From: Psychrobacter fozii
GTDB lineage: Bacteria; Pseudomonadota; Gammaproteobacteria; Pseudomonadales; Moraxellaceae
Reading direction: 5' to 3'
Length of the DNA stretch: 64,000 nucleotides
Assembly: GCF_003217155.1 (NCBI RefSeq)
Contig: NZ_QJSU01000006.1
Location: 124,001-188,000, forward strand
Below, in pieces: positions 51,893 through 64,000 of this stretch (position 1 is the stretch's first letter; every line of letters begins with the position of its first letter). The notes beneath the pieces are model-generated. The model saw nothing but the letters and a program-made list of their open reading frames with translations, was not told where the DNA came from and did no database searches. The translations under genes and the position numbers were made by a program.

Positions 51893-54250
51893 ATGAATAA
51901 AACAGCATCTCAAAGTCAGTCTACCGATAACACCCAAAACAAAGAAAGCTCTGAAAATCAAACCCAGAGTCAATCCATAAAAACATCCGACTCCAATACC
52001 AAAAATCCTACTTCAAAAACAGTAAAAGACACTTTAGAAAAATCTGAGAAAAAAACACAAAGCTTCGACGAGCTACAGATAAGCAAAGGGCAGTATCGCC
52101 CAGTAGCAAAGGCCGTTGGCAATTGGCTTGATAACATCAACATGGATGCCCTCAACTACCTCAACGAACAAGCCGAAAATATCTTTTATCGTAAAGGCGT
52201 CACCTTTACCGTCTATAGCGATGCCAAAAACATCGAGCGAATGATACCGTTTGACATTATCCCCCGCATTATCGCTGCCAGTGAGTGGCGACAGATAGAA
52301 GCTGGTTGTAAGCAGCGCATCACCGCTCTCAATGCATTCTTACACGATATCTATCATGACCAAGCCATAATGAAGGCCGACATCGTGCCTGCTAGCTATG
52401 TCTATGCCAGCGGCTGCTATGAGCCTTGGATGATGGGTATTGAACTGGACAAACCCATCTACTCACACATCAGTGGTATCGATCTGATCCGTGATGAGTC
52501 TGGTAAGTTCTGTGTATTAGAGGATAATTTGCGTACCCCGTCTGGCGTCTCATACATGCTTGAGAGCCGTAAAATATCAGAGACACTCTTGTCTGATATG
52601 TTTTCTGACACTCCTATTATGGGCATCAGCGATTACCCCAATCGTCTCAAAGCCTGTCTTGCCAGCTCAACGTCCAAATACGATCCACAAATCGTCATCT
52701 TGACGCCTGGTCGCTTCAATAGTGCCTATTATGAACATGCTTTTTTAGCACACGAGATGAATGTACCCTTAGTACATGGTTATGATTTGGTGGTTGAGGA
52801 TAGTAAGGTCTACATGCAAGGTATTCGAGGTAAGGTGCAAGTCGATGTTATCTACCGACGCATTGACGACCCTTATATCGATCCGCTAGCCTTTCAATCT
52901 GACTCGATATTGGGTGTCTCAGGGCTAATGAGCGCCTATCGTGCTGGTAATGTCGTTATAGTGAATGCGCCAGGCACAGGTGTGGCTGATGACAAGAGCT
53001 TATATCCCTTTGTACCAGATATGATTAAATTCTATTTAAATGAAGAGCCTATTTTACCCAATATAGAAACCTATCAATGCCGTAAGCCTGATGAGCTCAA
53101 ATACGTGCTTGATAATTTGGATAAGCTGGTCGTAAAAGAAACCCAAGGTTCAGGTGGCTACGGCATGCTCATTGGTCCAACCTCCACCAAAAAGGAGATT
53201 GAAGAGTATCGCCTGCGTCTACTTGAAAATCCAGCTGGTTTCATTGCCCAGCCGACTATCTCACTATCTACCAATCCTACTGCTGTCAGCGATGGCATCG
53301 CACCGCGCCACATTGATTTGCGTCCCTTTATCCTAAGTCACGGCGATGGTTCGGTAGATATTGTGCCAGGTGGTTTGACTCGTGTGGCCATGGTTGAGGG
53401 CTCCTTAGTCGTCAATTCATCTCAAGGGGGCGGTATCAAGGACACGTGGGTCGTTGATGACAGTCACTTGCAGTCTTCGACCAAAAAACCAAACTGCAAT
53501 GGTCAAGCTGGCAAATGCTCGCCTTTATCATCAGAGACCAATACCTCAGATCACGCCAACTACTATGATCGTGTACAGCCTCTAGAAGCGGGCTATGAGA
53601 TGCTAGATGACGCACCCATGATCCTGCTACTCTCCACTGCCAGTTATCTAATATGGCTAGGTCGATACAGTGAGCGCCTGTATTACTATGATGATGTCAT
53701 GAAAAAACTGGTCAAAGACGATCTCAAAAAATCACAGCTGAAGCACTTAATCGGCCATTTAGGTTTTGACGCGGATGCGGATGAATCGTTTAAGACCATG
53801 AAAGCGCAGATGCTGTCTGATTTGGAACGAAATATCATACCCAACATCGTTCAATCGATAGATGACAATGTACAGGAGGCCAAAGGCGTCATTGGTAAAG
53901 ATACTGCTGAGTTATATAATTTGATTAAGCGGCTTTCAAGCGCTGGTACTTATCGTGCTGCGACCTTACAGCTACATGCATGTAATGCCGCTATGAAACA
54001 AGAGCATCCGACAGTGACTTGTTTCTGGCAATTAGGGCGTCATTTTGAGCAGCTTGAGCGGGCTGTGCTACTGGAAGAGGACTCAATAGAGGTCAGTCTT
54101 GAATTTAAGTACTGGATCAATGAGCTACCAGAGAACACGCGCTGGCGTGAGCTGACACGTCTGGCCAATCAGATGATTAGATCGAAGAAATTTAGTGATT
54201 TTGAGCTGATTAGCAAAGAGTTTAATATCATCTTGCGTCAAGGTGTCTAG
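51893..54250 (+). CDS. Circularly permuted ATP-grasp protein fused to an alpha-E domain
   Basis: A 785-residue fusion. The first 60 residues are low-complexity (Gln, Ser, Lys, Thr). A circularly permuted type 2 ATP-grasp domain (about 60-560; DUF404/DUF407) contains GVSYMLESRK, LTPGRFNSAYYEHAFLAHEM and VVKETQGSGGYGMLIGP. From about 575 on, LLLSTASYLIWLGRYSERL marks the helical alpha-E (DUF403) domain. In many genomes these are two genes in the operon of the Anbu peptidase. They are thought to build a peptide-like tag or cofactor. GAGG precedes the ATG. Confidence 0.92.
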   Translation: MNKTASQSQSTDNTQNKESSENQTQSQSIKTSDSNTKNPTSKTVKDTLEKSEKKTQSFDELQISKGQYRPVAKAVGNWLDNINMDALNYLNEQAENIFYRKGVTFTVYSDAKNIERMIPFDIIPRIIAASEWRQIEAGCKQRITALNAFLHDIYHDQAIMKADIVPASYVYASGCYEPWMMGIELDKPIYSHISGIDLIRDESGKFCVLEDNLRTPSGVSYMLESRKISETLLSDMFSDTPIMGISDYPNRLKACLASSTSKYDPQIVILTPGRFNSAYYEHAFLAHEMNVPLVHGYDLVVEDSKVYMQGIRGKVQVDVIYRRIDDPYIDPLAFQSDSILGVSGLMSAYRAGNVVIVNAPGTGVADDKSLYPFVPDMIKFYLNEEPILPNIETYQCRKPDELKYVLDNLDKLVVKETQGSGGYGMLIGPTSTKKEIEEYRLRLLENPAGFIAQPTISLSTNPTAVSDGIAPRHIDLRPFILSHGDGSVDIVPGGLTRVAMVEGSLVVNSSQGGGIKDTWVVDDSHLQSSTKKPNCNGQAGKCSPLSSETNTSDHANYYDRVQPLEAGYEMLDDAPMILLLSTASYLIWLGRYSERLYYYDDVMKKLVKDDLKKSQLKHLIGHLGFDADADESFKTMKAQMLSDLERNIIPNIVQSIDDNVQEAKGVIGKDTAELYNLIKRLSSAGTYRAATLQLHACNAAMKQEHPTVTCFWQLGRHFEQLERAVLLEEDSIEVSLEFKYWINELPENTRWRELTRLANQMIRSKKFSDFELISKEFNIILRQGV

Positions 54251-54277
54251 CCGAAAAATAACGACAAGCGCTAATGA

Positions 54278-54385
54278 TACAGTCAATTCGATAGGGTTTG
54301 AAAGCAAGGAAGGCGCGTAAAGGCACGAACAATAGCAAACTAAGCGAGCCTGACACTGTATTCGATTTATATGGGATTGACTATA
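54278..54385 (+). repeat. MITE-like dispersed repeat, family A, copy 2
   Basis: A 108-base element aligned nearly without gaps to the copy at 4088-4196. Shared core pieces are AGGAAGGCG, CTAAGCGAG and TGACAC, and it ends GATTGACTATA. It begins TACAGTC, one base off the other copy. It lies between two genes of the Anbu operon and ends 33 bases before the transglutaminase start, the same position relative to a gene as copy 1. Confidence 0.78.
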
Positions 54386-54418
54386 CATATGAAATAAACA
54401 GAAACATAGGAAGCTATC

Positions 54419-55204
54419 ATGAAACTTCAAATCAGCCATCAAACCAATTACTACTACGGCGAGCTTGCACAGCGCAGTGTCCAGTATATACGCATGACTC
54501 CCATGCAGATGCCGCATCAAATTATTCATGAATGGGAGGTAATGCTCCCTAAAGTGGCGACCAATCAAAAGGATGGCTTTGGTAATGACTGGCTCACGCT
54601 AAGCCGTAATGAGGCGCATAACAATTTGCAAATGCAAGCGTCAGGTATCGTGGAGATTGATACAGAGACCCAACGTCTAGAGGATATGGCTCATGTCCCC
54701 TATCTGCTGTTTACCGTACAAACGCCTTTGACCAAATGTTCACAAGAGATGCGTGAGTTTGCAGCGCCTTATCTAAAGAAACCCACCCATGACAGCCTAA
54801 AGGCGATGGCCAATGCCCTCATCATGAAAATGCCATTCGTAAAGGACGTGACCCATGTAGGTACGACAGCTGCTGAGTCTTTTGCGACGAGCGCTGGCGT
54901 GTGCCAAGATCACACTCATGTGTTTTTAGGCTGCTTACGTGATCAGCATATTCCAGCCCGCTATGTATCAGGCTATCTGTATGACGATACCGAAAACCAC
55001 ATGGCAAGTCATGCGTGGGCAGAAGTGTGGTTAGATGGCTACTGGTATACTTTTGATATATCAAATCAGCTGTTTCAACCAAGCTCTCACGTCTACGTCG
55101 CTATTGGTAGAGACTACTTAGATACTGCCCCTGTACGCGGTGTACGTATGGGCGGCGGCTATGAGAATCTTTACAGTCAAGTATTGGTCACGCGACTATC
55201 ATAG
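54419..55204 (+). CDS. Transglutaminase-like peptidase of the Anbu operon
   Basis: A 261-residue bacterial transglutaminase-like cysteine peptidase. An N-terminal beta domain (MKLQISHQTNYYYGELA) is followed by the catalytic core with Cys162 (SAGVCQDHTHVFL), His198 (SHAWAEVWL) and Asp213 (YWYTFD). AGGAAG precedes the ATG. It follows the ATP-grasp/alpha-E gene and precedes the Anbu gene, the standard set. It may cleave or ligate the product of the ATP-grasp enzyme. Confidence 0.93.
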   Translation: MKLQISHQTNYYYGELAQRSVQYIRMTPMQMPHQIIHEWEVMLPKVATNQKDGFGNDWLTLSRNEAHNNLQMQASGIVEIDTETQRLEDMAHVPYLLFTVQTPLTKCSQEMREFAAPYLKKPTHDSLKAMANALIMKMPFVKDVTHVGTTAAESFATSAGVCQDHTHVFLGCLRDQHIPARYVSGYLYDDTENHMASHAWAEVWLDGYWYTFDISNQLFQPSSHVYVAIGRDYLDTAPVRGVRMGGGYENLYSQVLVTRLS

Positions 55205-55240
55205 CCTGATACCTTTTATGTTCACTACCAAGGATGTTTT

Positions 55241-55984
55241 ATGACTTATTGTGCTGCCATTCGCCTAAAAGATGGTATGGTTTTCGCTAGTGATACTCGC
55301 ACCAATGCAGGTGTCGATCATATCTCAACCTTTAGAAAGCTGTATCAGTATGGTATTGAGGGTGAACGCGTGATGGTGCTACAAACTGCTGGTAGTCTGG
55401 CCACATCACAAGCGGTATTTACCAAGTTGCAGCATGATATTGACCAACGCTATGAAAGCAATCTCAATACTGTACTCACACTGTTTGATGCCGCGCAAAT
55501 GGTGGGCGAATGCATGCGTAACGTCATGAACCATGCCAAAACGGTGGCTAACGATGATAACGGTAGTCAATTTACCAGCTCATTTATGTTGGGTGGACAA
55601 ATAAAAGGTCAGCCGCCCGAGTTATATATGATTTATCCCGAGGGCAATTGTATTAGGGCCACCAAAGACACGCCTTTTTTTCAACTGGGTGAAAGTAAAT
55701 ATGGCAAGCCAATTCTGGATCGGTCAGTCACATACGACACCGATATTCAGCATGCTGCGCGTGCATTAATGCTGTCATTTGATTCCACCATTCACTCCAA
55801 CCTATCAGTAGGCATGCCGATAGATTTTGTCATTTATAAAAGTGACAGTTTAGAGACACCTGAAGGTCGTCGTATTGATGAGAATGATGAGTATTTCAAT
55901 ACCATTCGTCGGCAGTGGTCAAAGGCGCTACGCAATATATTGGTTGAGCTGCCTGAGTATCCTGATAATTATTGGAATAAATAG
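55241..55984 (+). CDS. Anbu (BPH) ancestral proteasome-type peptidase
   Basis: A 247-residue Anbu protein, related to the proteasome beta subunit and HslV. It begins MTYCAAIRLKDGMVFASDTRTNAGVDHISTFRK without gaps, so Thr2 is the probable nucleophile after removal of Met. The conserved GES-KYGKPILDR and SFDSTIHSNLSVG regions are present. AAGGA lies upstream. It is the last gene of its operon and is followed by a terminator. The natural substrate of Anbu assemblies is not established. Confidence 0.94.
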   Translation: MTYCAAIRLKDGMVFASDTRTNAGVDHISTFRKLYQYGIEGERVMVLQTAGSLATSQAVFTKLQHDIDQRYESNLNTVLTLFDAAQMVGECMRNVMNHAKTVANDDNGSQFTSSFMLGGQIKGQPPELYMIYPEGNCIRATKDTPFFQLGESKYGKPILDRSVTYDTDIQHAARALMLSFDSTIHSNLSVGMPIDFVIYKSDSLETPEGRRIDENDEYFNTIRRQWSKALRNILVELPEYPDNYWNK

Positions 55985-56079: not shown

Positions 56080-56500
56080 ATAAAAAACCGGAGTAACGCT
56101 GAATAAACAGCCCTACTCCGGTCTTGCTTTAAAGGCCTTGAATGCCATCATAATGATGTCGCACTCAATTGTTGTGTAATCTACCTCATGACCTGGTACA
56201 TGGAAGACTCACTGGACTGCACCTAGATAAAGGCCCTAGTGCATTAGCTCAATCACGATTGCGTGATTGCGCCAGCGAGCTAATGACACTAGGGCCTTTA
56301 TCTAGGTATTAGCAGGACTGAAACAGTCTTCCTTGGGTAAAATGTAATGGCTTGACTCGTGGACGACGCAACGTCGCCCCTCACCGTAAACGGTGAAACG
56401 CTAAATCTCACAACACGTTAAGTGTGCCTCATAACAGTTAGTACTGTCAATACATAATTGACCACTTTCTTTGCTTGCGACATCTGTTGTCGCCACCTAT
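56080..56500. ncRNA. Hairpin-dense non-coding region, possible structured RNA or element cluster
   Basis: Several hairpins follow one another without any gene: ACCGGAGTA / TACTCCGGT (56087-56122), a very long one at 56221-56307 (listed separately), CGACG-CAA-CGTCG (56364-56376), TCACCGT-AA-ACGGTGA (56381-56396), ACAGT-TAGT-ACTGT (56434-56447) and GCGACA / TGTCGC (56477-56493). It lies between the Anbu terminator and the BRCT-HEAT gene. No known RNA family was recognised. It may be a leader RNA, a small RNA locus or a cluster of repeat elements. Confidence 0.4.
56202..56332. repeat. Long perfect hairpin with nested stems
   Basis: The arms at 56221-56241 and 56287-56307 are exact reverse complements over 21 bases (ACCTAGATAAAGGCCCTAGTG). 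Inside, ATTAGCTC pairs with GAGCTAAT and, at the tip, AATCACG with CGTGATT. Outside, GGAAGACT (56202-56209) pairs with AGTCTTCC (56325-56332). The whole 131-base unit could fold into one rod-like structure. Confidence 0.85.
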
Positions 56501-56614: not shown

Positions 56615-59600
56615 ATGAGTCTGTCCTTCGCACAAATCCAGCAAGCTTGGCACGCTCAAGACCCTAGCTTGGTTGATAAGTTATGTTTATTAGCAACACA
56701 AGTTGATGATGTTCCTGAGTCGCCCATCCCCGAGCACGAACTGACATTTGAGCGATTTTTGGACAAAATTTTAAGTCATCAGTTTCGGGAGCAAAACCCC
56801 GAAGTACAGTTTGCAGAGCGTGTGGCAATGATTGCCAAGCTTGAGGCAGACGAAGGCGTTTACCCTCTTCCTGATCGTTACAAAATCCATTTAATATTGA
56901 CCGCACTTTGGGAAGATGGCAGCGCGTATTCTAGAACCATTTTAAAACAAGCCATTACAGCTTTGCCAGTCAGCTATGGTGTGTGGAAAGGATTGAAGCG
57001 CATTTATAAGCAAGCTGAATTTTCTCAAGATTATGAGATATTTGGACAAATTGCCGCCAAGATTGATTTACAACGCTTCAATCAAACCGCTGATTCTACG
57101 GTCAGCCTAGCTACCAAAACCTATATGAGCCTCAGAGCATGGCGTTATCTGCGGCAGTTGGGTCAGCAAATGCCAATTGGCTATATTGATGCTGCTGTCT
57201 CTGTACTCGCCAGCTATGACGAAACCATGACAGCTGGCAGCCCTGAACAAACGAGCAGCTGGGTGCTCAATCACATCTGCTTCCACAACAGCCTTGATTA
57301 TGGCGTCAATCGATTCATTAGTCGCTCACCTCGCAAGCTCTTTGAGGCAAAAGGTCGCGCGTTTGCTGAGGCATGGCAACGAGACCCTGAACCACTTATT
57401 GAGTTGCTAGCCATCGCCAAAAACGAGGCTATCAGACAGTTCGCAACCGATAGCCTAAAGCACGACTTTAAGACCCAATTACGTGATGTGAGTGGTGAGA
57501 CGCTACAATATTTATCTGCCGGACAAGCACACAGCAAAGCACGTGATGAGATGATTGTTTGGCTATTAGAAAACTCACCGCATTTTGAAAAGTCTAAGTT
57601 TCAAGTATTGGGCTTGCATCAAGTCGTACTGCAGCTACTCCATTCACACTATCCTGCCGCCTATCAATATGCGATTGGCTATGCCAAAAGCTACGCTCAG
57701 GACTTATCACTCACTGAGCTGATGTTACTGGCCATGTCAGATTATGAGCCTGTTAGAGCATTTGCCATCAACAATATCTTAAGTCGTGATCCTGTTGCTG
57801 ATATCGGTGTCAACGGTTGGGGTCAGCTGTTAGACACAGAGCATCACTATCAAACCGCGAGCAAACAACTTAGCAAACACTTTACGCGACGTAACTTGAC
57901 CCCTGAGTGGTTTTTTGAACGACTGACTAGTGGCAGAACACACAGCGTAAAATTTGCCATAAAAAAACTGCCTGAGCTTTATAGTGCCAAAGAGCTAGGG
58001 ACTGAATATTTTATACGCGTTGCCCAGCAGTTAGATATACCAGAGCAGCAGGACTTCTCTGCTCATAATGGCAGTTACTGTAATGATAGCGACTGCATGG
58101 ACTTTGCATTGGACCAGCTCAGACGTTTGGATTTGAGTCAAGTAAACGCGGCAGTATGGCAAACACTGTTATTAAATCCACAGTCGCAATCCACTATTAC
58201 AGATTGGTTTGATGAAGATGTACTGTCAGCAGCAACGCTTGATATGAGCTATTGGCATGCACTTGCCTATGATCCTGATTGGCAGGTAAGTGAATATATT
58301 GAACAATTAAAATCTGCTGACACTCCTATTAAAAACTGGCAAAAGCACTTGGCCTTTGATGAGTACTTAGCAGAAAACGTGCGGGGCTGGCTATCTGATG
58401 TGCGTCGTTTTGCACCAATAGATTTAGGTTTCGACTGGCTTATGAATCTTGCGCATAGCGAACAAGCACTCTATCGTGAATTTGCGATTGAACGCATTAA
58501 CAAAGGATTCTTGCCTGCTGACTTTGTCGCATATCTCGACAGCAATGCAGGCGACTCCACTGACAACGCTTCCAGTAATAGCACTGATAATAAAGACTCA
58601 AATAGCGATGCTGCTACTGAAGTAGATTTAACCGGCCAACGCTATTTATTCACAGGTAAGATGCAAAGCATGACTCGTGGCGAGGCCGAAAAAGTTGTGA
58701 AAGCGGCTAATGGTGCCATCAGTGGTGCTGTCAACGGCAAGTTAGATTACTTGGTCATCGGTGATGACGGTTCACCGTTATACGGTAATGGCCGTAAAGG
58801 TAGCAAGCAAGTTAAAGCCGAAAGCTTAATCGCCGATGGTGCGCCGCTAAAGATTATTTCCGAAACCGCTTTTTTACAGATGCTGAGTGGTCAATCGAGA
58901 GATATATCTGAAGACGATACTTTTGCAGGTGCCAACGCACTGTGGTATATGGCAACAGATGACGCTACTGCACCTATCAGTGAGCTTGCGGTCAGCTACC
59001 TCAGTCATCATCATGAGCAGATCTGTATGGCACTGACAGACAGACCAGTCGATCCCGATGCGATTATCCCTTCTTCATTCTTTGATGCGGAGCGTGTCAT
59101 TCCTTTACTGCAACACCGTAACAGCCAGCTGCGAGAATTTGGCTTATTACTGAGTGAGTATGAGATGGCGACGTGGCAACCAACGCCAGCCCTATGGCTG
59201 ATGATGGCAGAATCTCCCTATACGGATATCACTCAACTGCTAAAGCGTGCGCTATTGGATAAGCCATCCGTTGTCAATCGACGTTATCACATCCAGTCAT
59301 CACAACTGAACGCTGGCATGCTGAATGCTTTGATTGAAAGCAAAGCGCGAGTCGCTCGCCAAATCGGCATCACCTTGCTGCAGCGTCATGCCAATTTCCA
59401 AGATGTGCAGTCTTTATATCGATTGACCCAAAGCACAGACCGAGAAGTACGTTATGCCGCTGTGACCATGCTATGGAAACACTATAAGGCGCGTCACGTG
59501 TCTCCAAACTGGCAGCCAAACACTACCGATAAAGATGCTGCTGTCAAAGATAATGACAGCCGCGTACAACCAGTCATAACAGAGCAGTCAGATAGACGTT

Positions 59601-60016
59601 TGGCAAACTTGCCTGCAGAGGTCGATCAGCTACTAATGCTGCTACGCCGTGGCCTCTTTGAGCTACCACCTGGACGTCTAGGCGGTTCACAAGAGCCAAG
59701 TACTAGTGACAGTAATAAGCATAAGCAAGAACGCTACTCAGATAAAAACTCAGCATCACCACAGTCATCAGAGACAGATAGCAACATCACGCTAAAACCT
59801 ATATCTGCGAGTCGTGCCAAACTGGCATTGATTGAGACCTTTCGTGATGTGGCGTTGGCTGACAGCACCTTTGCGGCGCTCATTATGCCCACACTGTTCA
59901 CCTTTACGCACTCGGCAGGCAAGATGGAGCGCCATGCGTGTTTGGTTGCCGTCACACGATTATTGCATCGCTATCCTGAGCTATCTAAAAACCTGAAGCC
60001 AGTGGCATCGGCTTAA
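56615..60016 (+). CDS. Giant HEAT-like repeat protein with a central BRCT domain
   Basis: A 1133-residue protein without signal peptide or membrane segments. Helical repeats of HEAT type fill about 200-640 and 770-1120 (for example NEAIRQFATDSLKHDF, SDYEPVRAFAINNILS, DREVRYAAVTMLWKHY). A BRCT domain (about 670-757) is flanked by Ser/Asp/Asn-rich linkers and contains LFTGKMQSMTRGEAEKVVKA and GKLDYLVIGDDGSPLYG. This is the DNA-ligase-type BRCT. AAGG lies ten bases upstream of the ATG. It is followed after 68 bases by the WD40-HEAT gene. The domain style recalls MolR-type proteins of E. coli, found with a MoxR ATPase and a vWA protein. The function is unknown. Confidence 0.85.
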   Translation: MSLSFAQIQQAWHAQDPSLVDKLCLLATQVDDVPESPIPEHELTFERFLDKILSHQFREQNPEVQFAERVAMIAKLEADEGVYPLPDRYKIHLILTALWEDGSAYSRTILKQAITALPVSYGVWKGLKRIYKQAEFSQDYEIFGQIAAKIDLQRFNQTADSTVSLATKTYMSLRAWRYLRQLGQQMPIGYIDAAVSVLASYDETMTAGSPEQTSSWVLNHICFHNSLDYGVNRFISRSPRKLFEAKGRAFAEAWQRDPEPLIELLAIAKNEAIRQFATDSLKHDFKTQLRDVSGETLQYLSAGQAHSKARDEMIVWLLENSPHFEKSKFQVLGLHQVVLQLLHSHYPAAYQYAIGYAKSYAQDLSLTELMLLAMSDYEPVRAFAINNILSRDPVADIGVNGWGQLLDTEHHYQTASKQLSKHFTRRNLTPEWFFERLTSGRTHSVKFAIKKLPELYSAKELGTEYFIRVAQQLDIPEQQDFSAHNGSYCNDSDCMDFALDQLRRLDLSQVNAAVWQTLLLNPQSQSTITDWFDEDVLSAATLDMSYWHALAYDPDWQVSEYIEQLKSADTPIKNWQKHLAFDEYLAENVRGWLSDVRRFAPIDLGFDWLMNLAHSEQALYREFAIERINKGFLPADFVAYLDSNAGDSTDNASSNSTDNKDSNSDAATEVDLTGQRYLFTGKMQSMTRGEAEKVVKAANGAISGAVNGKLDYLVIGDDGSPLYGNGRKGSKQVKAESLIADGAPLKIISETAFLQMLSGQSRDISEDDTFAGANALWYMATDDATAPISELAVSYLSHHHEQICMALTDRPVDPDAIIPSSFFDAERVIPLLQHRNSQLREFGLLLSEYEMATWQPTPALWLMMAESPYTDITQLLKRALLDKPSVVNRRYHIQSSQLNAGMLNALIESKARVARQIGITLLQRHANFQDVQSLYRLTQSTDREVRYAAVTMLWKHYKARHVSPNWQPNTTDKDAAVKDNDSRVQPVITEQSDRRLANLPAEVDQLLMLLRRGLFELPPGRLGGSQEPSTSDSNKHKQERYSDKNSASPQSSETDSNITLKPISASRAKLALIETFRDVALADSTFAALIMPTLFTFTHSAGKMERHACLVAVTRLLHRYPELSKNLKPVASA

Positions 60017-60084
60017 CGGCTTTGGCCGACATAGATAAATAGATACTTTAAAAAATATGACGTCACCTCAACTGAGATAACACC

Positions 60085-63000
60085 ATGAAAACAATAACAC
60101 TCCCCTATTGGGGTCAAATTATTGGCTTAGTCAGTAAGGCCAACAGCACCCAAGCGGCAACTCAAAAGACAACCAAGCAAGATGGGCGCAGTCTTTTTAT
60201 TACTCGCCAGCAGCAAGCATCTAATACGGTCTTATACATCCTTGATCAACAAGGTGAGCAATTTAGTTTATCGACAACTGCACTGCCTTGTGCGATGCAA
60301 GCCATCACCAAAATAGATGACAGCACTATTGTTATGATTGGTGATGATGGTCATCTTTACCAAACGGATTGGCAAGCAAAGAAAGTTAAGAAGACTAGTG
60401 CTACATCCTTGCTTGATGCACCTGAAGATAACAACAGTGCTATAGGCCGTGCTGTATCAATGGCACCACTACAAGATGCGTTGGCTATCTTATATCCAAA
60501 ACACATTGTGATATGGCCTTATCAGGACAGTCAAGCCAGCAGTACTGTCATCATTGAGTCTTATTCGTCTTCTATAGCAGCATCAAGTAAGGAGTCTGCA
60601 TTAACAGCGCTAGCAACCTCAAATGATGGCTCGTGGTTAGTCGTAGCAGATAAAACAGGAGCTGTTAGTAGCTATCAATGGACCTCAGAGAAAGCCCAGC
60701 TCAATCTAAGTAGTCGCAAACAGCTCCACCAAGGTAAAGTAAACGCGCTTTGTTTTGAGCCAGTTGGGCAGTATTTCTTCTCAGCAGGCGCAGATAAGTG
60801 CTTATACCGTACTCATATCCAAGGCGATCTGCATCCTGTTGATAGAGCCAAGTCTAGCCAACACAGCGAAATGATCACGGCGCTTTGTGTCTCAGACACT
60901 CGGTTGTTCACTGCCGCCGATGACAAGAGCGTCAAATCATGGGCATTTGATAAAGGTCAGCCAAACAGCTGTAAAGAGGATCTAACCAAGGCTCGACAGA
61001 TCGCCTTATCTTCTTACGCTGAACAACCAGCGCTCATCGTAGTCAGTGCCGATCAGAGCCTACGTTTCATACCTATTGACCATACTCAAAGTACGTCACA
61101 AAATAGTACGGCAAAAAATAGCAAGCTATTGCCAGTCACTTATATTATCAAAGACGGCTATCAGAGAATCGGCCAATTACTGACAGATACGTCAAACAAT
61201 AATGATGTGTCGTTTAAAGAAGGCTTGGTGCTGCTACAGGCGCAAGCAGATAACCAAACATTAGAGCTGGTCAAAAAATTACTTGCTGATAGCGACACAC
61301 TTACGGTCAACCAAGCATTGCAATTGGTACAGTGGGTTGCTACTACTAATCTTGATAAAACTGCACACGTTTTAGAGCAGCAACTAAGCTCGGCGCACAG
61401 TGCAAAAGTACGTCTTGCTGCTTTTCATGCCTTGGCCGACCGCGCAAGTACGGCGAAGCGCCCGCTGCATTATTTAGAAGAAGCCTTTAAAAACCGTTAC
61501 TACGAAGAAGTGGTAGCTTCTGCGTTACAAGGTTACCTAAAGGTCGCGATGAAGGATGCCACCAGCCAACGCAGAATTTTACCTATTTTAAGAGATGCGT
61601 TGTCACACAGTTTTGCGAATATTCGCAAGCAAGCACTGGCCTCCCTTGAGACACTGTTGCCAGAGAACAGTCCTCAAGCAGATTTGATGGCATTAGACTG
61701 TAATCAGTCAGACATTGTCCAATCAGGGTTAATTCGTCTGTATCAGCGCGGCATGCTAAACCATCTTGAAGTCTCGCGTCAATTGATGCTGCTACAGAAT
61801 CATCGTAATACAGAGATTAGGCAAACGGCGTTTTACGTCTCATTGCTGTCTCAGCCTAAGTTGATAGAGGCGTTGAAACAGCAAGGTGACACACAAACAT
61901 TGCGTACCCTGTCTGATTTTGATGACTTTCGCTTACTACGTGGCACGCTACTAGATAACGCTAGTAGCACAGCGGCAAATGATAAGAGTGTTAAAGAATC
62001 AGAATCCGATGAGGCGATCCGTTTAACTTTATCCACGCAAGATTTTATCTCGCAAGCAGATAACACCCAAACATCTAAGTCTAAAAATAAGGCTAAAACG
62101 GCAAAATCCAAGAAGCCTGCTACTGAATCCATAAAGCTAAGCAATGACACGTTAGAGCCTTTATTACAAAGCTTAAGCAATAGTCACGAAGATATCAGCT
62201 TTCGAGCGGCTTATGCGCTGGCTTGTCTACAAGACAAACGAGCGTTTGGCACCCTGATTAGTCTAATGAGCCATGATGACAGCGCCATCATCCGTGCTGG
62301 TGTGGCCACCGCGCTTGGTCATTTAAATATAGAAGACGCCAAAGCAGTCCTACCGACATTACTAGATGATAAGGACGCTGGCGTGCGCCAAGTGGCTATG
62401 CAAGCCTATGGCAAATTGGCAGACAATGCATTGTCTTGGGCAGCGACGGGTTTTGCTTCTAAACATCAAGACATTCACGAGCAGTCTTTAGCACTGTTTT
62501 TAAAGCATGTTGCACCAGATAGCTCAAATAGTGGTGATAGCAGTGATAAAAGCACTCAGATGTCGTCAGAGATGACAGACATATTGCTACAGGCATTGAA
62601 CAACCCTTTTACCAGTATTCGATTAGAAGTGGTTAAAGTTCTATTAAACCGCCAATTTAAGCAGTCATCTGACACTATTTCTAAAAACATTTCTGACAGT
62701 GCTATCGTTGACATTATCAAGCTATTGCAGCAAAGCCTCTTTGAAGATGTGCATCAAGTGGCGATAGAAGAATGGCAACGACTGCTGCTAGCGATGAACT
62801 CGAAACATAAAACGAATAAAGCCGATAACACTGAAGAAACGAATCACCAAAAGACCAATCAAGCTGTCCTGACCCTGTTCTTTGCAGATACGTTTGCCGC
62901 TATCCGTCAGCAAGCCTTTGACATCGCACTTAAGCAAAACAAGCATTTAGGGTTTGCTGACGTCATGTTGAGCGCGCTTGCCAGCCCTTATGCTGATACC

Positions 63001-64000
63001 AAGCAACTGGCCTTTACGACAGTGCAAGCCAGAGCGAATACGACTCAGCTGACACAACTGATGCCAGCTCTAGTAGCTATGTTCGCTGATGACAGTATTG
63101 AGCTGCGCAAGCAAGCCTTGACGGTCGCTTTGGCGCTGACAGACTTACAGCCTACTATTTTAGCAGATCACAGTAGCCTAGATGATAGTAGCACCGATGA
63201 TCAATCAAATCATCATGAAGCATTGACTATCGCAGCTCTAAGCAGCCCTTACCCTGACATCCAGCTGACAGTCGCTCAACTACTGGCCAGTCAGTCTCGC
63301 TTATATGCTGACGAAGAACAGGCACAGCGGAGTGATGAGCAAGCGTACCAAGTCTTTAAACACTATTTAGAACTGCCTATGCCTTCTCAAGGTAAGAAAA
63401 GTGATAGCTATACTCAGTGGCACAGTCATGTTAGCCAAGCACTGTCTGGCTTGTCTAAACTGGCATACCCATCAAAGCATGATGCGCTAGGTTGGTATGC
63501 TAAATATCTACACCACCCTGATGCTGATTTTAAACCTCTTGCACCAAAGATTACGCAGATAGCTTCTTTTGAGGACATTGATCTACTGGTGAAATGGCAA
63601 AAAGATGAGCGCGACATTATCAGTCAATCAGCCAGTTTGTGTTTGGCTATTTTGGGTGATGCTCGCGGGCAGTACTTCCTTACTCATAACATAAGAGACG
63701 AAACAGACAATCTTAGTACGCTTGTTGCACCGATGACGCCTACGCATTGGCTACAAGCGCAGCACGGTTTAGGTATTACACATGCACGGCAATTACAGCC
63801 TTTGTTTGAGTCAGAGTCCTATGCAGTAGCAGCCAGACTGTTATTGATATTTAATGACTTACAGAATGGCTTGCAAGATAGCCTGCAAGCTACTAAAACA
63901 GACACTACTAGCACTGGTCGACCTAACCAGCTGATAGAAGCCCTAAGCTTTGCCGATAATGACACGGCAGTAGTCTACGCTAATATACTCGCTCGTTACC
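60085..64000 (+). CDS. Giant WD40 plus HEAT repeat protein, 3' end outside the window
   Basis: An uninterrupted frame runs from the ATG at 60085 to the right edge without a stop (1305 codons visible). The first 350 residues contain WD40-like beta-propeller repeats (LTALATSNDGSWLVVADKTG, VNALCFEPVGQYFFSAGADK, ITALCVSDTRLFTAADDKSV). From about 380 on, HEAT-like repeats follow, such as EDISFRAAYALACLQDKRA, DSAIIRAGVATALGHL and DAGVRQVAMQAYGKLA, broken by Ser/Asp-rich linkers. There is no signal peptide. It is on the same strand 68 bases after the BRCT-HEAT gene and is presumably its partner. Confidence 0.85.
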   Translation, partial: MKTITLPYWGQIIGLVSKANSTQAATQKTTKQDGRSLFITRQQQASNTVLYILDQQGEQFSLSTTALPCAMQAITKIDDSTIVMIGDDGHLYQTDWQAKKVKKTSATSLLDAPEDNNSAIGRAVSMAPLQDALAILYPKHIVIWPYQDSQASSTVIIESYSSSIAASSKESALTALATSNDGSWLVVADKTGAVSSYQWTSEKAQLNLSSRKQLHQGKVNALCFEPVGQYFFSAGADKCLYRTHIQGDLHPVDRAKSSQHSEMITALCVSDTRLFTAADDKSVKSWAFDKGQPNSCKEDLTKARQIALSSYAEQPALIVVSADQSLRFIPIDHTQSTSQNSTAKNSKLLPVTYIIKDGYQRIGQLLTDTSNNNDVSFKEGLVLLQAQADNQTLELVKKLLADSDTLTVNQALQLVQWVATTNLDKTAHVLEQQLSSAHSAKVRLAAFHALADRASTAKRPLHYLEEAFKNRYYEEVVASALQGYLKVAMKDATSQRRILPILRDALSHSFANIRKQALASLETLLPENSPQADLMALDCNQSDIVQSGLIRLYQRGMLNHLEVSRQLMLLQNHRNTEIRQTAFYVSLLSQPKLIEALKQQGDTQTLRTLSDFDDFRLLRGTLLDNASSTAANDKSVKESESDEAIRLTLSTQDFISQADNTQTSKSKNKAKTAKSKKPATESIKLSNDTLEPLLQSLSNSHEDISFRAAYALACLQDKRAFGTLISLMSHDDSAIIRAGVATALGHLNIEDAKAVLPTLLDDKDAGVRQVAMQAYGKLADNALSWAATGFASKHQDIHEQSLALFLKHVAPDSSNSGDSSDKSTQMSSEMTDILLQALNNPFTSIRLEVVKVLLNRQFKQSSDTISKNISDSAIVDIIKLLQQSLFEDVHQVAIEEWQRLLLAMNSKHKTNKADNTEETNHQKTNQAVLTLFFADTFAAIRQQAFDIALKQNKHLGFADVMLSALASPYADTKQLAFTTVQARANTTQLTQLMPALVAMFADDSIELRKQALTVALALTDLQPTILADHSSLDDSSTDDQSNHHEALTIAALSSPYPDIQLTVAQLLASQSRLYADEEQAQRSDEQAYQVFKHYLELPMPSQGKKSDSYTQWHSHVSQALSGLSKLAYPSKHDALGWYAKYLHHPDADFKPLAPKITQIASFEDIDLLVKWQKDERDIISQSASLCLAILGDARGQYFLTHNIRDETDNLSTLVAPMTPTHWLQAQHGLGITHARQLQPLFESESYAVAARLLLIFNDLQNGLQDSLQATKTDTTSTGRPNQLIEALSFADNDTAVVYANILARY

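Follow-up and report, generated by a model that had tools for sequence, protein, structure and literature searches.

A predicted four-gene type XIII retron in Psychrobacter fozii with a divergent template RNA in front of its first gene

The 64,000-nt stretch of Psychrobacter fozii DNA analyzed here (NZ_QJSU01000006.1, positions 124,001 to 188,000; hereafter, the window) sits in a 3.5-Mb genome and ends with two adjacent genes for giant repeat proteins. We find that this pair is probably the first half of a four-gene type XIII retron whose template RNA would be encoded by the other strand, ahead of gene 1. Gene 1 (56615-60016, + strand) encodes a BRCT-HEAT protein of 1133 aa, and gene 2 (+ strand, from 60085 to beyond the window's edge at 64000) encodes a WD40-HEAT protein; these two open reading frames (ORFs) are as described in the original prediction, which had been made from the letters of the window alone. 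At least 1305 aa of gene 2 are encoded within the window, and its stop lies 3770 bases past the edge, at L003:11771 (this prefix marks positions to the right of the window), for a full length of 2561 aa. Two further genes follow outside the window on the same strand, one for a SWIM zinc-finger protein of 751 aa (gene 3, L003:11768-14023), which overlaps gene 2 by 4 bases, and, after a gap of 3 bases, one for a retron reverse transcriptase (RT) of 479 aa (gene 4, L003:14027-15466). Under the scheme by which retrons are sorted into types, PADLOC labels all four proteins as parts of type XIII, at 498-1829 bits (HEAT-ARM_XIII, 1102 bits for gene 1 and 1829 bits for gene 2; SWIM_XIII, 498 bits; RT_XIII, 518.7 bits, compared with 285 bits for the next-best model of the RT), and the RT carries the motifs YADD, NAxxH, and VTG. 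The original prediction had taken the pair for the scaffold of a larger conflict system with a SWIM gene and an ATPase/vWA module to the right; the pair does belong to a conserved operon that runs past the edge, and the SWIM gene is present, but the fourth gene is a retron RT rather than an ATPase or vWA gene.

The domain content of the pair is also largely as predicted. In gene 2, an N-terminal WD40 beta-propeller (32.8 bits, cut-off 27) and HEAT_2 repeats (66.5 bits, cut-off 27.7) both pass the Pfam cut-offs. In gene 1, BRCT (15.6 bits, cut-off 21.3) and HEAT (16.7 bits, cut-off 27.7) both fall below them, yet two further lines point to a DNA-ligase-type BRCT domain at residues ~666-759. The first is partial similarity, in NCBIfam, to PRK06195 at its BRCT end (57.9 bits) and to LigA (33 bits), both far below the whole-protein cut-offs; the second is the predicted fold of residues 666-759, which matches LigA (integrative model 9a6z) with a Z of 11.6 over 80 residues at 26% identity. 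Outside of this domain, the fold search with the gene 1 model returned only generic HEAT-repeat proteins and no specific partner. The Pfam WGR domain is absent from gene 1, yet the protein aligns to PADLOC WGR_XIII with 132 bits, most strongly across residues 100-386.

To place the operon among its relatives, the RT_XIII model was searched against 299 genomes of the family and 14 control genomes. Matches at E 1e-60 or better occurred in 35 of the family genomes and in none of the controls; 27 family genomes, including the window's own, exceeded 420 bits, and the weaker remainder may be other retron RTs. Among the 26 other family loci, 25 match all four genes in identical order (frames look broken in L059 and L060), which bears out the co-occurrence of the pair across genomes, while the 26th is a 7.5-kb contig with part of the WD40-HEAT gene, SWIM, and RT, gene 1 being missing. 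A scan of named genomes yielded at least 80 loci from Planctomycetota, Myxococcota, Pseudomonadota, and others, with operons of a four-gene kind, a three-gene kind (HEAT protein, SWIM, and RT, with no WD40-HEAT gene within the flanks examined), and a permuted order seen in Competibacteraceae, where L118 is complete with all four genes and L106 and L108 are cut by contig ends. The 95 RTs called (L095/L164, L096/L163, and L107/L161 are each one locus counted twice) carry YADD in 95, NAxxH in 92, and VTG in 87 cases, and the CxC..CxH motif is present in 81 of 87 SWIM proteins. PADLOC SWIM_XIII also matched one of the 14 control genomes (Methanosarcina) and WGR_XIII three (Synechococcus, Haloferax, and Methanosarcina). 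Gene 1 contains BRCT in 26/26 family loci and in 19/23 other four-gene operons (it is missing from L161-L164); the count for L094-L140 is 0/29, a fair test only for the uncut L106, L108, and L118 and the three-gene loci, the others being cut by the 10-kb flank. As for WGR, four of six three-gene HEAT proteins scanned carry it at their N-terminus, and neither of two four-gene proteins does. Since each of these two domains, BRCT and WGR, occurs in known readers of DNA breaks, they may be exchangeable sensors.

In the usual retron layout, which is not a required one, the RNA shares the RT's strand and lies immediately upstream of the RT. This is not the arrangement at the window locus, where the intergenic gaps before the RT are too small for an msr-msd and where the 630 bases before gene 1 contain a structure at 56171-56419. 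Read on the minus strand, this 249-nt segment, which diverges from the operon and lies 13.6 kb away from the RT, is the predicted type XIII msr-msd template (fold z -9.3). In minus-strand order it consists of a1 (56402-56414), the 5' arm of a duplex with a2; a TTTAGC motif with the predicted priming guanosine at 56401, which is invariant in the alignment described below and follows the motif rule given in PMC6868368; two msr stem-loops (56361-56397); a predicted msd of ~172 nt of reverse-transcribed DNA (56184-56355); and a2 (56171-56183), the 3' arm. The msd boundary is a prediction, its 3' end being placed 5 nt behind the second stem-loop by analogy with the retron Mx162. Within the msd lies a long hairpin (56221-56307, common to both strands), the middle of whose stem is variable and compensated.

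Covariation argues for this structure, including the a1/a2 duplex and the stem-loops. Alignment A2 comprises 20 of 26 loci. L037 is not among them, nor are L046, whose hairpin holds an N run, L051, with its inner hairpin inverted, L052 and L059, both duplicates of L042, and L054, which a contig end cuts. In it, 97.9% of cells are paired, compared with 33-40% in slid controls, and double-sided compensatory change was found at 28 pairs and 79 cells, compared with 9.4 pairs and 18.1 cells in shuffles. Four of five measures were never reached in 500 shuffles, and the fifth (pair types) was reached in six; RNAalifold predicted 79 pairs from the same alignment, 26 of them with double change. With respect to strand, the stem-loops and a1/a2 pair in 130/131, 152/152, and 216/226 cells on the minus strand vs. 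114, 133, and 186 on the other. The + strand was also considered as the RNA strand, since its fold is strong too (z -9.8), as a palindrome folds either way, and was dropped on these pair counts and on the orientation of homologs. Two family copies showed irregularities at the palindrome: in L051:16655-16903, the inner portion of the msd hairpin runs in the opposite direction to that of the other copies, as expected from recombination between its long arms, and in L046:2754-2868 the hairpin core reads as N, where the assembly may have broken or been masked.

Homologs of the RNA were sought with an iterated profile on both strands of 131 loci, which gave 68 hits in 61 loci (many of the loci without a hit do not include the flank required; there is some overlap between loci, and neighbouring copies may be merged, as in L102, where two were counted once). 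Each of the 26 family loci whose sequence extends ahead of gene 1 contains a match, L046 with the N run in its hairpin and L054 as only a short piece at the contig end, and the RNA diverges from the operon in 25 of them; the exception, L058, from another genus, has it on the operon strand. Elsewhere, the RNA lies just before the RT on the RT's strand in 20 loci, mostly Myxococcota, before gene 1 on the operon strand in 15 (L058, L141-L144, L147-L151, L153, L154, L156, L161, and L162; 2.5 kb from gene 1 in L161, and on a contig without an RT in L141), and behind the RT in L090. The window differs from the three-gene type XIII relatives in having BRCT in gene 1, and its RNA is flipped before that gene, not just upstream of the RT; among the copies found, the flipped RNA was seen only in the window's lineage. 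An RT tree was built from 68 of the 95 called RTs, the flipped lineage being represented by 13 of its 25 rows; L113, L058, L109, L127, and two three-gene rows drew a long-branch warning. On it, the flipped rows form one clade (support 100/99), as do the three-gene rows (100/100), and the five placement labels require 8 changes, compared with 40.2 in shuffles. A single inversion, in the common ancestor of this lineage, would most simply account for the flipped RNA.

The myxobacterial retrons Mx162 (Retron-Mxa1) and Sa163 (Retron-Sau1) are described in PMC6868368 as having the priming motif CAGC, a 162-nt multicopy single-stranded DNA (msDNA), a 241-nt transcript, and an extended RT N-terminus. 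Our locus L111, from M. xanthus, shares the CAGC motif and the long N-terminal extension and falls with the four-gene loci on the RT tree; the distance between its G and a2 is 207 nt, which would put the end of a 162-nt product 5 nt past the second msr stem-loop. The L111 RT ORF has 485 aa, which we take to be the length of the Mx162 RT as well. L111 may be Mx162 itself, and the four-gene branch is, judging from these sequences, probably the family of this classic retron. In L111, unlike in the window, the RNA is placed between SWIM and RT and shares the strand of the latter, and a BRCT was not found among the complete gene 1 proteins of its clade (L106, L108, and L118). Rfam returned four chance-level matches near the window element and, for L111, nine matches below the gathering score, mostly microRNA-type hairpins, with no retron family in either case. 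For Retron-Nex1 (Ne160), PMC6868368 reports several msr-msd copies at one locus. Multiple copies also occur in L115 (three, with stems that differ among those examined), L162 (three), L153, L094, and L102 (two each); in contrast to Retron-Nex1, these copies adjoin an RT or its operon, and the window has one copy. A literature search found no paper on a template RNA of type XIII retrons or on a retron clamp; its scope excludes the published classification of retrons (10.1093/nar/gkaa1149) and their census (PMC11911249), against which novelty is not established.

The site of the operon was compared among 105 genomes of the genus. On its left (window 51893-55984) lie CP-ATP-grasp, transglutaminase, and proteasome-fold genes that recur there in relatives, the last being, we presume, Anbu-like; on its right, the RT is followed by genes for UvrA-like, DUF819, DEAD helicase, DUF1176, GST-like, MFS transporter, two ferritin-like, and ABC ATPase proteins. 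The Anbu-like and UvrA-like genes lie within 60 kb on one contig in 40 genomes (seven RT-bearing genomes fell outside this judgement). The operon lies between them in 12 genomes, at a spacing of 15.5-16.7 kb; in 27 they are 34-73 bp apart, i.e., the site is empty, with the operon elsewhere in 6 of these; and in one they are 55.5 kb apart without the operon. Eight of the empty sites were read; in these, the match with the window stops in the last Anbu-like codons (window 55975) and resumes at the UvrA-like 3' end (L003:15750-15755), and therefore the module fills the intervening 15.8 kb; exact insertion breakpoints, sought in the same eight sites, could not be pinned down. Within the window's genus the operon is sporadic (25 same-genus genomes in the RT_XIII family search), which fits a defence module. 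Two further observations were made in this genome. Behind the RT, a ~175-bp palindrome (L003:15498-15672) resembling a miniature inverted-repeat transposable element (MITE), with ends AGGGCGTGTCCTCA / TGAGGACACGCCCT, splits a hairpin that is likely a terminator, and it is missing at the equivalent place in L041, L055, and L057. A second, distant retron-type RT (G000:C1:659293-660258, 580-aa frame, 5e-65 to RT_XIII) probably belongs to another retron.

The SWIM protein was modeled from one homolog only, the 751-aa protein of another Psychrobacter locus (L062; 33-row alignment; mean predicted local distance difference test score 73.4, predicted template modelling (TM) score 0.70). With residues 70-400 of this model, all 50 rows listed by Foldseek were PCNA (best E 1.8e-7, target TM 0.68), and the VIA comparison with PCNA gave a Z of 17.5 over 216 residues at 2.8 A and 12% identity. 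Viral structures matched were mostly PCNA, beta clamps, and herpesvirus processivity factors, the top match being an uncharacterised haloarchaeal virus protein. Therefore, the SWIM protein likely contains a PCNA/beta-clamp-like fold, as far as the model can tell. It differs from PCNA and the beta sliding clamps in its low identity (7-14% in the listed alignments) and in the added parts that follow the clamp-like region, i.e., a winged helix (weak helix-turn-helix hits), a SWIM finger (E 1 or better in 31 of 33 members), and a weakly WGR-like end (6 of the 33 proteins gave hits, all below cut-off; those inspected were C-terminal).

Several observations weigh against the retron interpretation or parts of it. 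The structure tested on A2 was taken from one row of that alignment, which biases the test in its favor; the long hairpin is blind to strand, 724/734 of its cells pairing either way; and one short msd helix pairs better on the other strand, by 2 cells. A promoter scan before the RNA found none on the minus strand (two in total, both +, vs. 1.3 expected, an uninformative yield). The RNA profile had no match in 10 of 24 other operon loci (L145, L146, L152, L155, L157-L160, L163, and L164) nor in any of L120-L140. Pfam, PADLOC, and NCBIfam scans found no known toxin or nuclease domain in the four proteins. As for the clamp, a SWIM profile found nothing at E 10 among PDB sequences, so the fold is without sequence support, and Pfam returned SWIM, weak WGR and helix-turn-helix, and other families; of its 26 families, the 25 shown include no clamp.

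Three other explanations were weighed. That the pair is the scaffold of an NTPase system like the E. coli set, in which MolR-type repeat proteins lie with MoxR ATPase, vWA, and SWIM genes, would account for the HEAT scaffolds and the SWIM gene. However, this reading was dropped when no MoxR or vWA gene was found among the scanned ORFs of at least 100-120 aa in the 22 kb that follow (as far as C6:210000, short antisense frames excluded), an RT and template RNA being there instead; type XIII profiles were silent in E. coli, which we assume to be among the 14 controls, so the proposed kinship is unsupported, and we give this explanation almost no credence. The hairpin at 56171-56419 could instead be a MITE, an operator, or a terminator unrelated to the RT, with the true template elsewhere: long palindromes are common in mobile elements, and the MITE-like one behind the RT is a case at hand. 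Yet the element is present in a single copy in its own genome, its msr side covaries as well and carries the TAGC motif, and its homologs stand directly before RTs, on the RT strand, in other phyla, which makes such an origin very improbable.

The third explanation is a type XIII retron with a cellular role, e.g., in DNA repair or replication control. The BRCT domain, the clamp-like fold, and the UvrA-like neighbor would suit such a role, and PMC6868368 reports that Mx162, Sa163, and similar myxobacterial retrons are probably vertically inherited and that msDNA was present in 27 of 28 myxobacterial strains. The sporadic distribution in the window's genus and the presence or absence of the module at an otherwise intact site argue against it, and we consider a non-defence role unlikely. 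For the type XIII retron in the window, a role in defence against phage, a toxic part, and the making of msDNA are inferred from the family.

The template RNA would be transcribed away from the operon and would fold via a1/a2, as in retron biology generally, and the RT would prime on guanosine 56401 and copy ~172 nt into msDNA, the body of which would be a long, near-perfect duplex hairpin. RT, msDNA, and the SWIM protein, with its predicted clamp-like fold, winged helix, and SWIM finger, may assemble into a complex for which the giant HEAT/WD40 proteins serve as scaffold, with BRCT, like WGR in the three-gene relatives, contacting broken or nicked DNA. A phage that disturbs the msDNA or makes abnormal DNA ends would release or activate the complex, which would stop DNA replication or kill the cell (abortive infection). 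A first guess at the toxic subunit would be the clamp-like SWIM protein. A bolder proposal, which we regard as rather unlikely, is that type XIII retrons, probably including the first retron found (Mx162), are clamp machines, in which a PCNA-like SWIM ring or part-ring would be threaded on the retron's own msDNA stem and held by the BRCT/WGR strand-break reader on HEAT/WD40 arms. Damage to msDNA by phage would free the clamp to capture clamp-binding enzymes or block forks, and in the window's lineage the template RNA would have been inverted as a unit and be separately transcribed.

Retron searches often seek hairpins upstream of the RT (PMC6868368). Since the template here lies on the other strand, 13.6 kb from the RT, such searches could mistake systems of this kind for RNA-less. 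The map of RNA placement gives a predicted, testable msDNA for this retron branch, and the predicted clamp-like SWIM fold suggests that the target of type XIII retrons, perhaps including Mx162, may be the replication fork.

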